A stretch of 44,876 nt of DNA from a virus. The stretch covers positions 1 through 44,876 of the IMG/VR virus record IMGVR_UViG_3300038660_000409. One strand, 5' to 3'. Under the pieces are notes generated by a model, which saw only the letters and a list, made by a program, of their open reading frames with translations, did no database searches and had not been told where the DNA came from. Position numbers and translations under genes: made by a program. How positions within the stretch are numbered: the first letter of the stretch is position 1; the number at the start of each line of letters is the position of its first letter. Shown here piece by piece: positions 35,850 through 42,275 of the stretch.

Positions 35850-37109
35850 TCACTCGCCGCCTCGAACCACACGCGGACGTGCTTTCATGATGTCCGCAAC
35901 CGCGTCCACGCCCGCCCTAAGCGGGCTGTCGAGAAGGTGCGCATAGCGCTGCGTCGTACGCATCTGCGTGTGCCCCAGCAACTTCCCGATCATCTCGAGC
36001 GAAGCTCCGCCGCTGACGAGCAGAGAGGCGAATGTGTGGCGCAGATCGTGGATCCTGACCTCGGGCAACTGCGCGGTCGTCTGGATCGCGGTCCAGAACC
36101 GCCTGATATCTTGCACCGGCTGGTCCTTTGGCATCCCGTCAGCGTTCAGCGCGTCGCCTGGAAACAACCATTCGCATCCCTTCGGCACCGCCACACGGCG
36201 CAGGCGCACCAGCCCGGCTGCCTCGGCGGAGATAGGCACACGGTGCACCCGGCGCTGCTTGGTGTTGGCTGCGGGCTTGGACCAGGTCCCGAGGTCGAGG
36301 TTGAACTGCTCGAACCGCGCCGTCCGGACCTCGCCCAGGCGCGCGCCCGTCAGCATGCACATTCGCACTATTGCGGCGGCGCGCTGGTCATCCGCCGCCT
36401 GCAGCGCGTCGCCAAGCCGTGTGATTTCCTCGATCGACAGGAACCGCTCCCGCTCTGTCTCCAAGCGTCGCCTGAAGCCCTCTGCGGGATTGTCGACGCG
36501 CATCTTCCACGCCACAGCGAGGTTGAACATCTTGCGCAGGACCTCGCCCGCTCGGTTCGCCCTGATCGGTGTCGGCTTTGCGGGTGCCAGCTTCTTGCGT
36601 CGACTCGTGCCCTTGTCCTTCGACGGGCGCGCCCGCCCTTCCGCGATCATGCCGAGAATGCGCTCGACGTCAGACGCCTCGATTTCCGAGACGAGGCGAT
36701 GTTTCCAGTGCGGCTCGACCAGCTTCCGAAGCATCGACGCCTGGTCGGACGCGTTGCGCGGCGCGAGGTGCGCGGCGTGCTCGCGGAGGTATCGGTCGAT
36801 CAGGTCCGGGATCCGTGGCGCTGCGCGGATTTGCTCCCGCTCGGCCAATGGGTCGTGGCCATCATCGATCTCGCGGCGCAGCTGCTTGGCGCGGTCGCGC
36901 GCGGCCACGACGCTCCATTCTGGCCAGCGCCCGATGGCCATGCGGCGCTGCCGCCCCTTAATCGTGTAATCGAGGTAGAAGCCCCGGCTTCCCGTCCGCT
37001 GGATCACCGCCGAGAAGCCCAGCACCTCGTCGTCAAACAGCTGGTAGGGGCGGGCGCGTGGCTCCGCCTCCTTCACCAGTTTCTCTTTCAATCGCTGTCT
37101 GCTGCTCAT
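35850..37109 (-). CDS. Tyrosine integrase of the prophage
   Basis: 419 aa from the ATG at 37109 (MSSRQRLKEK); the open frame reaches 37277 without a better start. N-terminal arm-type DNA-binding domain of the DUF4102 kind (SAVIQRTGSRGFYLDYTIKG, RRMAIGRWPEWSVVAARDRA), a central SAM-like region with a Lys-rich insert (about 160-182), and a C-terminal catalytic domain with Arg257, His354-x-x-Arg357, His380 and Tyr389. It would integrate the phage at a tRNA 3' end. Its gene lies 0.7 kb from the tRNA fragment at 37773-37822, which supports this target. Confidence 0.93.
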   Translation of the reverse strand: MSSRQRLKEKLVKEAEPRARPYQLFDDEVLGFSAVIQRTGSRGFYLDYTIKGRQRRMAIGRWPEWSVVAARDRAKQLRREIDDGHDPLAEREQIRAAPRIPDLIDRYLREHAAHLAPRNASDQASMLRKLVEPHWKHRLVSEIEASDVERILGMIAEGRARPSKDKGTSRRKKLAPAKPTPIRANRAGEVLRKMFNLAVAWKMRVDNPAEGFRRRLETERERFLSIEEITRLGDALQAADDQRAAAIVRMCMLTGARLGEVRTARFEQFNLDLGTWSKPAANTKQRRVHRVPISAEAAGLVRLRRVAVPKGCEWLFPGDALNADGMPKDQPVQDIRRFWTAIQTTAQLPEVRIHDLRHTFASLLVSGGASLEMIGKLLGHTQMRTTQRYAHLLDSPLRAGVDAVADIMKARPRVVRGGE

Positions 37110-37164: not shown

Positions 37165-37317
37165 TCAAAGAACCAAGAAGATGCCGATCCAGAACAGGAG
37201 GCCCACGATTGCGCCCGGGACGATCCACCACCCGGGCGGGAAGCGATGGTCTCGGCCCGCGCGAGCGGGGCAGTCACGTCCTTGGCGGCAGTCGTTGTTA
37301 CAAGGAGGGCAGCTCAT
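37165..37317 (-). CDS. 50-aa Cys-rich membrane miniprotein
   Basis: 50 aa from an ATG overlapping the Acb2-like stop (ATGA). The N-terminus has four cysteines in CPPCNNDCRQGRDCPAR, then an aromatic turn (FPPGWW) and a hydrophobic helix to the end. The CxxCxxxCxxxxxC cluster could bind zinc; the membrane helix suggests a peripheral anchor. Similar short Cys-rich proteins occur beside phage early genes. Function unknown. Confidence 0.7.
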   Translation of the reverse strand: MSCPPCNNDCRQGRDCPARAGRDHRFPPGWWIVPGAIVGLLFWIGIFLVL

Positions 37318-37511
37318 GCGCCGTACTCAAGCGCCGCGCGGACCATGCAGTCCTTCGCCTCGAGCAGCTTCCGAAGCCCGGCGCTCTTCTCCGGACCATC
37401 TGGCAGCGCCTCGTTCATCTGCGTGGCCAGATTCCCTAAGGGCCTCGACACCACCTGCAGGCGCTCGGGAAGGTGGGCGTACTCGAAGTACTTCATGATG
37501 GGGTTGGACAT
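37314..37511 (-). CDS. acb2-like: Acb2/Tad1 hairpin-domain protein, candidate anti-CBASS/anti-Thoeris sponge
   Basis: 65 aa behind an AGGAGG. The sequence YFEYAHLPERLQVVSRPLGN and LPDGPEKSAGLRKLLEAKDC match the compact helical-hairpin family of phage Acb2 proteins, which bind cyclic dinucleotides and gcADPR-type signals and so block CBASS and Thoeris defence. The family name is from pattern recognition, not from a search. Location near the integrase and attachment site is typical for anti-defence cargo. It is translationally coupled to a Cys-rich membrane miniprotein. Confidence 0.75.
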   Translation of the reverse strand: MSNPIMKYFEYAHLPERLQVVSRPLGNLATQMNEALPDGPEKSAGLRKLLEAKDCMVRAALEYGA

Positions 37512-37565
37512 GTTGCCTCCTGAAATTTGAACAGGACCAACATGCCGACGGGAAGCGCGCGGCGG

Positions 37566-37604: not shown

Positions 37605-37614
37605 GCTCGCAGTT

Positions 37615-37633
37615 TGACTCAAGCCTGACTCAA
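37615..37633 (+). repeat. Two TGACTCAA direct repeats
   Basis: TGACTCAA at 37615-37622 and 37626-37633, 11 bases apart (one helical turn). Close to the attachment region; candidate integrase or excisionase sites. Confidence 0.45.
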
Positions 37634-37650
37634 CCGACGTTCTCCGTTCG

Positions 37651-37690
37651 TGCACGGTTTGGTGCGGTTCGGTGCGGTCGGGTGCGGTCG
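37651..37690 (+). repeat. Four 10-bp tandem repeats, candidate integrase arm sites
   Basis: Units beginning at 37651, 37661, 37671 and 37681; the last three are GGTGCGGT plus two variable bases, the first is degenerate. The exact 10-base period puts every unit on the same helix face. They lie about 80 bases from the tRNA fragment, where tyrosine integrase arm or excisionase sites occur. No gene lies between 37512 and the recombinase. Confidence 0.55.
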
Positions 37691-37772
37691 AATGAGAACA
37701 AGGAAAGCGCGGGATTCCAAAGGCTTGCGGGCTAAGTCTTTGATTTCTGGCTTCTTTGCAAAAAGCGCAAAT

Positions 37773-37822
37773 TCAGGCTCATAACCTGAAGGTCGTAGGT
37801 TCAAATCCTACTCCCGCAACCA
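37773..37822 (+). tRNA. 3' fragment of a Met (CAT) tRNA, attachment site
   Basis: Partial gene only. Anticodon stem-loop TCAGG-CTCATAA-CCTGA (37773-37789), variable region, T arm GTAGG-TTCAAAT-CCTAC (37795-37811), acceptor 3' strand TCCCGCA, A, and CCA to 37822. The upstream bases do not form a D arm or acceptor 5' strand, so the gene is not functional. The sequence resembles the alphaproteobacterial initiator tRNA. Such 3' halves are the right-hand attachment sites left when elements integrate into tRNA genes. Confidence 0.85.
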
Positions 37823-39407
37823 ATGCCTCGCACTCATCTGGGTTAAACTCAGACAAACCAACAGTGAGTGCAGGCTTGTCGCGACCGGAAGCGACAGACA
37901 GAATACCCGCCAAATCGCCAACAAGATCAATAATAGGCATGCCACGCTCCACCGAGGGCGTTAGAACGATAGCCTCAATCATTGATCGAATGAGCTCAGA
38001 AGCTTCCTCGCGGTGCTCTGAGTTGTTCAGAGACTCGATGAGCCTCTTGACCTCGCGCTTGTAGCGCGCGGCAATACCCGGCTCAAAAAGAGACGGGCGT
38101 TCAATTTTTCCATCCAGCAGCTTTTCGAGCTGCCCCATGCGCTTCTCGATTCGCGCAGCATCATCTTTCAAGAATACAGCCGACATGCCGTCCAAGATGA
38201 ACTGCACAACCTTCTTCTTTTCGCGGTGCAGCTTTTGCAGCTCTGCCTCGTAATGATAAAGCGAAGCGTTGTGACGCTTGGTCAGCTCTCCCATGTGCCG
38301 TGCATACTCCTCGCAAAACACATCACAGAGTTCTTCGTTCATCAGATGATCGCGCAGCGACCCAAGCACGGATTCTTCGAGTTCATCCCGAGGGATTGTT
38401 TGTTTGTTATCACAGGTAGCTTTGTTCCGCGCGTTCGAGCAGCCAATCCGGCCTTTTGAGACCGTAGAGCAGCCGCCTCCGCACACGCCGCACTTGATGA
38501 GATAGGCGAAAATGTTCCTGGGGCGGTTGGTCTGCCAGAGTTTAGGCTTGCTGTTCAGGCCCGCTTGGCGCGCTTTCGCTTTCTCCCAAAGTTCTTCGGA
38601 AACGATCCGCAGATCGGGAACGTCATGGACGATCCAAGCATCTTCGGGGTTCATCTTGGAGACACGTTTTCCGGTTTCAGGGTCTTTAAGATACCTCAAC
38701 CGGTTCCAGACAAGGCGTCCGATATACAGCTCGTTGTTCAGGATGCCTGTGCCGCGTTGACGGTTGCCGTTGATGGTGCTTTGCCCCCATCCTTTGCCGG
38801 ACGGGCTCAAAATACCTTCCTTGTTCAACACAGCCGCAATCGCCTTTGGTGACTTGCCAGCGCCGTAATCCGCAAAAATTCTGCACACGACTGAGGCTTC
38901 AGCATCGTTGATTGTGCGTTGGCCGCGCTCTTCACCCGGAACCACGTCGTAGCCGTAACACTTCCCGCCACCCGACAATCCTTTTTCGACACGGCCCCGC
39001 AAGCCACGGCGAGTCTTGTCGGCCAAATCTTTTAAGAACAAGGCGTTCATCGTGCCTTTCAGGCCAATATGAAGCTGGGAGACTTCGCCTTCTGACAGCG
39101 TGATGATCATGATGCCCGCAAAGCTCAGACGCTTATAGACCGCCGCAATGTCTTCCTGGTCGCGTGAAATTCGGTCGAGTGCCTCTGAGTAGAGCACGTC
39201 AAATTTGCCAGCTGCCGCGTCCTGCATGAGCATCTGAATACCTGGCCGCATCAGGGACGCGCCAGAGACCGCATGGTCAGTGTAGCTTTGGACGATTTCC
39301 CCGCCACTTGCCGTCGCCCGCTCTTCGCACAGCCTGATTTGGTCTTCGATTGAAGACTGGCTTTGTAAGTCTGTGGAGTATCTGGCGTAGATGGCGATGC
39401 GGGTCAT
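37779..39407 (-). CDS. Large serine recombinase
   Basis: 542 aa. The N-terminal resolvase domain begins MTRIAIYARYSTDLQSQSSI with catalytic Ser11. LYSEALDRISRDQEDIA and a recombinase domain follow, then a zinc ribbon (CGVCGGGC...CSNARNKATC) and a coiled coil (HYEAELQKLHREKKKVVQFI). The last codons (AGVGFEPTTFRL) are read antisense from the tRNA fragment and the stop lies in the antisense anticodon loop. This means its attachment site coincides with the tRNA 3' end. It probably integrates the right-hand element next to the prophage. Confidence 0.92.
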   Translation of the reverse strand: MTRIAIYARYSTDLQSQSSIEDQIRLCEERATASGGEIVQSYTDHAVSGASLMRPGIQMLMQDAAAGKFDVLYSEALDRISRDQEDIAAVYKRLSFAGIMIITLSEGEVSQLHIGLKGTMNALFLKDLADKTRRGLRGRVEKGLSGGGKCYGYDVVPGEERGQRTINDAEASVVCRIFADYGAGKSPKAIAAVLNKEGILSPSGKGWGQSTINGNRQRGTGILNNELYIGRLVWNRLRYLKDPETGKRVSKMNPEDAWIVHDVPDLRIVSEELWEKAKARQAGLNSKPKLWQTNRPRNIFAYLIKCGVCGGGCSTVSKGRIGCSNARNKATCDNKQTIPRDELEESVLGSLRDHLMNEELCDVFCEEYARHMGELTKRHNASLYHYEAELQKLHREKKKVVQFILDGMSAVFLKDDAARIEKRMGQLEKLLDGKIERPSLFEPGIAARYKREVKRLIESLNNSEHREEASELIRSMIEAIVLTPSVERGMPIIDLVGDLAGILSVASGRDKPALTVGLSEFNPDECEALVAGVGFEPTTFRL

Positions 39408-39747: not shown

Positions 39748-41706
39748 TCACGACGGTGCCTCCCCTATTTTTTTCCAGATGATGAGAGGGCAATTGTCGT
39801 GCCCATAGCTCTCGAACGACTCCGATACGACCGGAAGGCCGACATAGCGGCACCAGCTATGGTTTGCGGTGTACTGGACCCGCAAGTGCGGCAGGCCCAG
39901 TGTCAGAATGACAATAACGAGGACCGCCGGAACAAGAGCTTGCTTCGCAGGCAGGAGCAGCCCGAGCGCTGCGAACAGGGGGCGTAGCAACGGACGCTTT
40001 GCGCGCTTAACGATGCGCGTACCGTTGCGAGTCGCAGCTGCATTGCCGCCCTTGATTTTCAGTTTAACCCGCCCCAAGAATTGTTTGCCGCCGTGCAGCG
40101 GATTGGCAGCGACGACTTCTCTCCAAGGCGAAATCTCATGATACCCTGCCTTGAGAGCGCGGATCGGCGGCAAGTTTTTGAGGAAAATGATCTGTTCGTC
40201 ATCTGGCAGGCGGCGCACTTCATCGGGCGTCATAAGCGGTTTGGTGCGCTTGCCGAGGCTCAAGGTCGGCATGCCAAGGATTTCTGCTCCCATGCCAAAA
40301 CTTTCTGATGAGAGCTCTTCTTCGCCCAACATTTTGCTGACGAGCTGAGCTGTCTCCAAGGACGACACCCCGAAAAATTGTTTCACGTCGGTTTGGCTCA
40401 GGATCGTCGAGAGGGCCTCATGTCCATAAACCCGTGCAATTTCTTTCAGCTCTTGGACAACCATCCAACAGCGCACGCCGTAACCGCCAAGCGCAGTCAA
40501 GGCATTGGGCAAGCCACTCAGTTTGTAGTTTGTGAACTCGTCCAAAATGAAGTGAACGGGCACGTCATTGTCTTCGCGGATGAGCTCTTTCAGCGCAGCC
40601 CACATCAGGAGCCCGAGCCATGGGGCAAAGACATCCATGCGGGAATAATCGCAGACCATGAATAGCGTGCAGGTTCGCGACTTCAGATCGCGGAAGCGGA
40701 AATCACAGTGAGTCATGCTGGGTGCGAGACGACCACTTGGCCCAAAAGCTGTCAGGGACTGAATCGCGCCTTCACGGAAAGACTCGAAGTGCTTGGGGTT
40801 GTCATCCCAAGTCGATGCGATGTTTGACGCCAGCTTAGAAAGCTCACCAGCAAGCACGTCACTTCTCCGTGCTTGCTGGAGAAGTTTCTCAAACTCGTCA
40901 TTGTCACCGAGCAATTCAAATGCCCGTGGAAGATTGGCTTCTGCCTCATCGAAGAGCACGCAGAGCGACACGATTACAAAAACCAGCATCTTGCGCGTAC
41001 CATTCGGCCAGAACGGATCACGGTCACCGCCCGGAGCTTGAGGAACAAGCTGCATTGCCATCGACCATGCATCGGAGATCACGTCTTCTTTCGCGTGTTT
41101 GAAATCATCCAGAATAATCTGCATCGGGTTATATGCTGCGTTGCCCAGGTCGAATTTGTGAGCCGGGTTTAGAATAACGACGTCCTGATTGGGCCTTGCT
41201 GCAATCATCTTGCTTGTCTGAGCTGCAAGATCGCCCTTCATGTCGGCCACAATTTTTGACGCGCCGAAGTCATGAATGATCGCAGGCATGACAAAACTGG
41301 TTGTCTTGCCTTTTCGCGCCGGTGCGCAGACCAAGCCGTGAACGCCGTCTGACAAAAACAGGGGCTGGCTGTCCACGATACCAAGAAACAAGCCTGCTGT
41401 TTTGGCAAGGCCAGCCTTGCGGGCCTGACGTTTTGTCAGCCAGCTTGCAGAGGCGTTGCTCAGTTTTGGGCGCATGGCGCGGAAGGTGCGATGCACGTTT
41501 TGCGTCAGTGCCGCCAAGTCTCGAAGTGCAGATGCTACTCCGAGGCCTGTCACGAGCGCACCGCCGCCCCATGCATACAGTTGCCACTCTTCCGCATAGC
41601 CGCTGTTGACAACTGGCCACGCCACATAGAGGCCATAGCCAATCGCCGATGTAATGAGCAGACGCCCAAGTGCGCTGCCTTCGCTATTTTGGTTCGGGGC
41701 TCCCAT
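39748..41706 (-). CDS. VirD4/TraG-like type IV coupling ATPase
   Basis: 652 aa from the ATG at 41706, overlapping the upstream stop in TGATG (an ATG at 41733 would add nine residues). Two N-terminal hydrophobic segments (about 13-33, 43-60). The ATPase core has Walker A APARKGKT (128-135) and Walker B HFILDEF. VADMKGDLAAQTS, MLVFVIVSLCVLFDE and LSQTDVKQFFGV are typical of TraG/VirD4 family motors that pull DNA or protein substrates into a type IV channel. The C-terminal third ends in a further hydrophobic helix (ALVPAVLVIVILTLGLPHL) and a tail with a few Cys, which is unusual for this family. Coupled to two membrane-protein genes. Confidence 0.88.
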   Translation of the reverse strand: MGAPNQNSEGSALGRLLITSAIGYGLYVAWPVVNSGYAEEWQLYAWGGGALVTGLGVASALRDLAALTQNVHRTFRAMRPKLSNASASWLTKRQARKAGLAKTAGLFLGIVDSQPLFLSDGVHGLVCAPARKGKTTSFVMPAIIHDFGASKIVADMKGDLAAQTSKMIAARPNQDVVILNPAHKFDLGNAAYNPMQIILDDFKHAKEDVISDAWSMAMQLVPQAPGGDRDPFWPNGTRKMLVFVIVSLCVLFDEAEANLPRAFELLGDNDEFEKLLQQARRSDVLAGELSKLASNIASTWDDNPKHFESFREGAIQSLTAFGPSGRLAPSMTHCDFRFRDLKSRTCTLFMVCDYSRMDVFAPWLGLLMWAALKELIREDNDVPVHFILDEFTNYKLSGLPNALTALGGYGVRCWMVVQELKEIARVYGHEALSTILSQTDVKQFFGVSSLETAQLVSKMLGEEELSSESFGMGAEILGMPTLSLGKRTKPLMTPDEVRRLPDDEQIIFLKNLPPIRALKAGYHEISPWREVVAANPLHGGKQFLGRVKLKIKGGNAAATRNGTRIVKRAKRPLLRPLFAALGLLLPAKQALVPAVLVIVILTLGLPHLRVQYTANHSWCRYVGLPVVSESFESYGHDNCPLIIWKKIGEAPS

Positions 41707-42275
41707 CAGTTCACCGCTCCCGGCCATGGACAAGAAACCAACGCAGCTGCAATCGCGTTTTCATCGAGCTCCAGTAGAGTGAGATCCTCGTTTGTTAGAT
41801 CGAGAGCGATGACTTGACCGGTAGAATTTAGCACTGCAAGTCCGACACGCGGATCAAGCCCACCACTATCCACAATGGCCCAGCAGAATGATCTCACAAG
41901 CCCCGTCCGATTGATTGCGTCGCGGTAGATCGTTCCAACGACGATGCTTACGCCATCCTTAAGCAGAGGACCCTGCGTGAATTCGAGATCACCACTTGCC
42001 AGAGCATCCTGAGCCGCTTGCTGCGCAACTTCTGCGATTGTCGTTTGCCGCTTGGCGGCATTTGTCGCCTCGTTGGCGTCCCTGATTAAGTCCTGCGCAC
42101 AGACGCTGCCAGCTACCGGATAACCTGCAATACAACGCAGTTCCGCCCAAGCCTTGTGCAGGGCCGTCCTGTCCGGGACGGCAAGCGATAGAACGATGGT
42201 CGCAATGGTTCCGGTGAAAGCTAAAACCATTAGGAAGCCGATGGCGGTGCCGAGGATTCTTTTGATAGAGGTCAT
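41706..42275 (-). CDS. Membrane-anchored hypothetical protein coupled to the VirD4-like ATPase
   Basis: 189 aa from the ATG at 42275, with GGAAG upstream. An N-terminal hydrophobic helix (about 7-30, ILGTAIGFLMVLAFTGTIAT) is followed by a domain with cysteines (RCIAGYPVAGSVCAQDLIRD). That domain ends in a beta-rich half (GPLLKDGVSIVVGTIYRDAI). One-pass protein, larger part probably periplasmic. No family recognised. It overlaps both neighbours by one or four bases and is probably a subunit of the same membrane complex. Confidence 0.65.
   Translation of the reverse strand: MTSIKRILGTAIGFLMVLAFTGTIATIVLSLAVPDRTALHKAWAELRCIAGYPVAGSVCAQDLIRDANEATNAAKRQTTIAEVAQQAAQDALASGDLEFTQGPLLKDGVSIVVGTIYRDAINRTGLVRSFCWAIVDSGGLDPRVGLAVLNSTGQVIALDLTNEDLTLLELDENAIAAALVSCPWPGAVN

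Follow-up and report, generated by a model that had tools for sequence, protein, structure and literature searches.

A virus-encoded protein of 65 amino acids belongs, as judged by significant distant homology between sequence profiles, to a branch of the Acb2/Tad1 hairpin superfamily that is diverged and has gone unrecognised, and is probably a sponge for a nucleotide signal with a predicted altered ligand face. Its gene occupies positions 37314-37511 on the minus strand of IMG/VR record IMGVR_UViG_3300038660_000409, which comprises 44,876 nucleotides (the window). Both the hairpin superfamily and the way in which sponges work have been described before; the 65-aa branch, in contrast, goes unnoticed in the searched libraries and in the papers found, and a literature search returned no paper naming PHROG 1761 or PHROG 5120, the two families to which the protein is assigned.

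The 65-aa gene belongs to a widespread and conserved phage family

The 65-aa ORF begins with an ATG located 4 nt downstream of a Shine-Dalgarno sequence, AGGAGG (37516-37521, minus strand), that is kept in three related prophages designated L001, L004 and L377. The encoded protein is a direct member of PHROG 1761 (E = 9.2e-33) and PHROG 5120 (E = 1.8e-25), both annotated as function unknown. IMG/VR contains 317 relatives with identities of up to 94% and a sister subfamily of 554, giving about 870 relatives if the two sets, which may overlap, are added. The family is also present in 368 phage records, 24 plasmids and 197 loci of bacterial genomes, with hosts including Rhodobacterales, Enterobacterales, Acinetobacter, Pseudomonas and Streptomyces. 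The nearest kin are found in Rhodobacterales-like prophages (L001, 94% and L377, 92% identity). Across 80 loci, 63 distinct DNA versions of the 11-residue core AGLRKL[LI]EAKD translate into only two amino acid sequences. Because of its many relatives and the conservation of amino acids over divergent DNA, the ORF is, on comparative sequence evidence, a real gene that is protein-coding beyond chance.

Two subfamilies can be distinguished by their motifs, PEKSAGLRKLLEAKDC for subfamily I and RNPERTVALRKLLEAKDA for subfamily II. Residues F9, H13, L14, P15, L18, S22, A29 and E41 are nearly invariant across both subfamilies and divergent members, as are L46, R47, K48, L49, E51, K53, D54, V57 and R58. 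The turn between the helices takes insertions in five relatives (L268, L269, L279, L284 and L291), and Acb2 has a similarly insertion-tolerant turn. Ochrobactrum phage OH (L127, 765-1130) and L012 (5001-5303) encode fusions of the hairpin domain with a small zinc-ribbon-like segment, which is N-terminal in one fusion and C-terminal in the other. A further suspected fusion, a long open frame upstream of the gene in L040, lacks any domain match. In Brevibacterium phages 2T, 6C and 9C (H102-H104) the homologous gene extends over a longer stretch that bears the annotation 'repeated sequence in phage genome', which hints that repeats have expanded within the hairpin gene. Some Acinetobacter phage records, for example MZ675741.1 (L131), list family members as 'occludin homology domain protein'. 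This label most likely stems from a chance-level Pfam match (E = 0.18), and the similarity of the 65-aa protein to Occludin_ELL or occludin is likewise at chance level.

The gene lies in a variable slot at the integrase end

A tyrosine integrase is encoded beside the hairpin gene (35850-37109, minus strand; likely ATG start at 37109, with the frame open to 37277) and contains PF00589 and PF13356 domains (E = 1e-21 for PF00589 and 3e-15 for Arm-DNA-bind_3). Its copies in L001, L004 and L377 are 90-98% identical. The end of the prophage is marked by an attachment core (37770-37823, plus strand) made up of the 3' half of tRNA-Met(CAT) including CCA. This core is common to the window and the three related prophages while the flanks outside it diverge in the alignment, and no complete tRNA is present at the core in the window. 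The integrase and attachment site proposed in the initial annotation are thus both borne out. Alignment and a repeat scan revealed TTGAGTCAGGC direct repeats between the attachment core and the hairpin gene (37612-37634, minus strand; two copies, three in L001), and three GGTGCGG repeats with an exact 10-bp spacing, corresponding to one helical turn, are found upstream of the hairpin gene on the attachment side (37655-37688, plus strand). Both sets of repeats represent possible arm-type sites of the integrase. Past the attachment core lies the gene of a large serine recombinase (37779-39407; Resolvase, Recombinase and Zn_ribbon_recom domains), the final codons of which extend into the tRNA fragment. 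Next comes a long ORF resembling a TraG/VirD4 coupling protein (39748-41733). This side looks like host DNA or a conjugative element and not like phage.

On the other side of the hairpin gene, an ORF for a Cys-rich miniprotein of 50 aa that ends in a hydrophobic segment (37165-37317, minus strand) starts with an ATG that overlaps the hairpin-gene TGA (ATGA). These features agree with the initial annotation, which had also described the miniprotein as coupled to the hairpin protein. The coupling does not extend to close relatives. Miniprotein copies in L001, L004 and L377 are 80-84% identical and lie beside the same integrase, and in two of these prophages other ORFs separate the miniprotein gene from the hairpin gene: a CxxC-rich ORF of about 134 aa in L377 (3382-3783) and two ORFs, one of 74 aa, in L001 (1275-2046). 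In L004 the two genes are about 0.5 kb apart. Because of these intervening genes, the miniprotein is assigned by sequence comparison to the integrase end and not considered a partner of the hairpin protein. The integrase end is a slot with variable cargo, the extra ORFs of L377 and L001 being missing from the window, and the ATGA overlap is best explained by loss of an intervening gene.

The location beside integrase and attachment site, previously read as an anti-defence position, is correct for the window and is not the usual place of the family. A related integrase is found near only 5 of 160 loci, and outside the window's phage group neither the miniprotein nor the integrase accompanies the hairpin gene. 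About 200 different PHROGs occur next to the family, among them genes for capsid, head-tail connector and baseplate proteins, for holin/endolysin/spanin, for nucleotide and DNA metabolism and for terminase. The family occurs in lytic jumbo, T4-like and N4-like phages as well as in temperate phages, in unrelated neighbourhoods.

A bridging family links the 65-aa protein to the Acb2/Tad1 superfamily

Direct sequence searches do not identify the 65-aa protein as Acb2 or Tad1. No match was found to PF24729 (Acb2_Tad1_hairpin), NCBIfam or PADLOC, even though PF24729 readily detects T4 Acb2 (Vs.4) used as a positive control (2.2e-20, 70 bits). The best relative, L119, reaches 16.4 bits (E = 0.011), below the curated PF24729 cut-off of 27 bits. 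The single 65-aa sequence has no phmmer match to Acb2 chains in the PDB, and the family profile gives no significant hhalign match to T4 or Pseudomonas Acb2 (probability 0.2-0.4). The motif LPDGPEKSAGLRKLLEAKDC, initially annotated as the core of known phage sponges, is consequently not confirmed as such a core, since the protein carrying it directly matches neither the Pfam hairpin model nor any solved Acb2 structure. None of the 46 viral contigs (possible fragments) and 13 phages carrying the 65-aa family contains a PF24729 match above cut-off, which is compatible with replacement but is not counted as evidence here.

When family profiles were searched against PDB sequences, the only Acb2 entry recovered was 9PTQ ('Acb2 homolog 43'; E = 0.75-1, among chance matches), and this weak match led to a bridging family, phrog_1454, which includes 9PTQ. 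The family consists of mycobacteriophage, Gordonia and Streptomyces phage proteins with the signature P-x-GREK..TKLEEAMFWANAAIAR, and in cluster E mycobacteriophages one of its members is annotated as a CBASS antagonist (PMC11953737). Unlike the window protein, phrog_1454 members match PF24729 (1e-16 to 1e-19, with one shorter member at 2.6e-8). Alignment of the 65-aa family profile (112 sequences) with that of the bridging family (56 sequences) using hhalign gave a probability of 90% and an E-value of 1.7e-6 over 52 columns that take in the aromatic motif near the N-terminus as well as the greater part of the hairpin. In this alignment F9-x-Y11 is paired with FAF/FAY, and P37-x-x-x-E41-K with P-x-GREK. 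The match scored 38.0, whereas 200 profiles with shuffled columns reached 19.6 at most and the profile in reverse order 11.5. HMMER connects the same families: L119 and the window protein match phrog_1454 at 3.9e-6 and 0.0034, respectively, T4 Acb2 matches it at 7e-4, and a bridging protein matches phrog_1761 at 0.009. Shared features are the FxY aromatic motif, the P-x-x-x-E-[KR] turn and K-L-x-E-A on the last helix. In contrast, the linker from the aromatic motif to the first helix is 5 residues longer in phrog_1454, and the proteins end in WANAAIAR instead of KDxxVRA. Because the direct profile comparison with canonical Acb2 is not significant, kinship to Acb2 rests on this bridge and is distant; the assignment as Acb2/Tad1-like made by the initial annotation stands at the level of the superfamily but not as a direct family match.

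The predicted fold is a helical hairpin with a conserved charged face

AlphaFold2 with the family alignment yielded a confident model of the 65-aa protein (pLDDT 94.6) with helices at residues 4-9, 16-35 and 40-63 and without strands or a winged helix, in line with the helical hairpin expected earlier. The Acb2 protomer is described as a short helix followed by a two-helix hairpin (PMC12043709), and the model shows this same arrangement of a short helix and two antiparallel helices. A Foldseek search of the PDB returned nothing significant and no Acb2; short helical hairpins score poorly in such searches. Against BFVD, the model retrieved its own family first and then proteins named Acb2/Tad1 hairpin domain-containing, at ranks 8, 9, 10, 13-17, 19, 21, 25 and on, with E-values from 0.08 for the first such match and probabilities of up to 1.00. 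Beyond the family itself, the closest viral structures are thus mostly Acb2/Tad1 hairpin proteins. A two-helix hairpin is nevertheless a simple fold, which counts against the Acb2 reading. Modelled without an alignment, a bridging-family protein reached a pLDDT of only 64, too poor for a structure search.

Residue-level comparison shows likeness as well as divergence. Acb2 (T4 Vs.4 and Pseudomonas phage p26; PF24729) and the 65-aa family share the short N-terminal helix followed by two antiparallel helices, an aromatic residue in the N-terminal loop and an invariant arginine on the last helix, where R58 lines up by eye with R79 of T4 Acb2. Acb2 proteins, which form hexamers that bind cyclic di- and trinucleotides and counteract CBASS, are larger (88-94 aa compared to 62-65 aa), and their signatures GYR...NxxK and AQP/FQP are absent from the 65-aa family. 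The polar signature of the latter (H13, S22, R47, K48, K53 and D54) is unlike the residues with which Acb2 contacts its ligand, and K26 of Pseudomonas Acb2 has no obvious equivalent. T4 Acb2 binds cyclic dinucleotides through Y8 and F82, and Acb2 also sets off the toxicity of Panoptes (PMC12657218). In the 65-aa family the place of Y8 is taken by Y11, a Y/F position, and that of F82 by a leucine, as judged from alignment. The 65-aa family also possesses a strongly charged conserved face that is absent from Acb2 and varies much less than the Acb2 families do. Given this face and the leucine at the F82 place, the family may bind another ligand, or a protein instead. Tad1, the anti-Thoeris sponge that binds gcADPR, has a C-terminal two-helix hairpin assigned by name to the same Pfam family (PF24729), and differs by an N-terminal beta-sheet domain for which the strand-free model has no counterpart.

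Discussion

Based on homology to Acb2 and Tad1, we consider it somewhat probable that the 65-aa protein is a diverged superfamily member that works like Acb2, as an oligomeric sponge for nucleotide signals. The short N-terminal helix and the aromatic strip F9-x-Y11-x-H13-L14-P15 would lead into the two antiparallel helices, which may self-assemble into an oligomer. Such an oligomer would bind the nucleotide-derived alarm signal of CBASS, Thoeris or a similar system so that the abortive effector of the host is not switched on. The spread over lytic and temperate phages in unrelated neighbourhoods is as expected for a travelling counter-defence gene. A bolder version, which we hold as doubtful, is that the family represents a third branch of the superfamily in which the invariant H-L-P and R-K-x-x-E-x-K-D-x-x-V-R elements form a new pocket for a signal bound by neither Acb2 nor Tad1.

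The near-absolute conservation of R47-K48-E51-K53-D54-R58 could equally reflect a conserved protein partner. The hairpin may have been kept by descent for another job, with this face docking onto a conserved host protein so that the 65-aa protein serves as an adaptor or inhibitor. Hardly any variation is seen in the face between phages of Proteobacteria and those of Actinobacteria, or between the two subfamilies, Acb2 families are far more variable, and the zinc-ribbon-like fusions in two relatives (L127 and L012) also fit an adaptor. We nonetheless regard this role as unlikely, given that nucleotide binding is the only demonstrated function in the superfamily (Acb2, Tad1) and that no partner gene travels with the family among its roughly 200 neighbouring PHROGs.

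A resemblance by convergence seems quite improbable; in that case the protein would be a small helical hairpin of separate origin that perhaps has a part in virion structure or assembly. The missing direct profile match, the negative PDB search and chance-level Occludin_ELL matches would all suit it, but it leaves unexplained the collinear bridge, at an E-value of 1.7e-6 and well over its shuffled and reversed controls, the reciprocal HMMER matches and the dominance of one family among the structural neighbours. Hardly credible is an excisionase-like accessory of integration or excision. That idea draws on the position between integrase and attachment site in the window, L001, L004 and L377, whereas a related integrase lies nearby in so few loci (5 of 160), the predicted hairpin has no winged helix, and T4-like, N4-like and jumbo phages, all of which carry the family, are lytic.

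The authors of the Acb4 study regard Acb2 as comparatively rare and confined to particular groups of phages (PMC11722364). With the 65-aa branch come several hundred, perhaps a thousand or more, additional genes from phages that infect Proteobacteria, Actinobacteria and further hosts; in databases these genes are 'hypothetical' or wrongly named occludin-like. If the third-branch reading holds, the family would rank among the more widespread counter-defence families of phages that have gone unrecognised. If the proteins are sponges, their nucleotide signal would be important enough to keep the binding face nearly invariant across hosts, and the family would supply small proteins of 65 amino acids that can be easily assayed.
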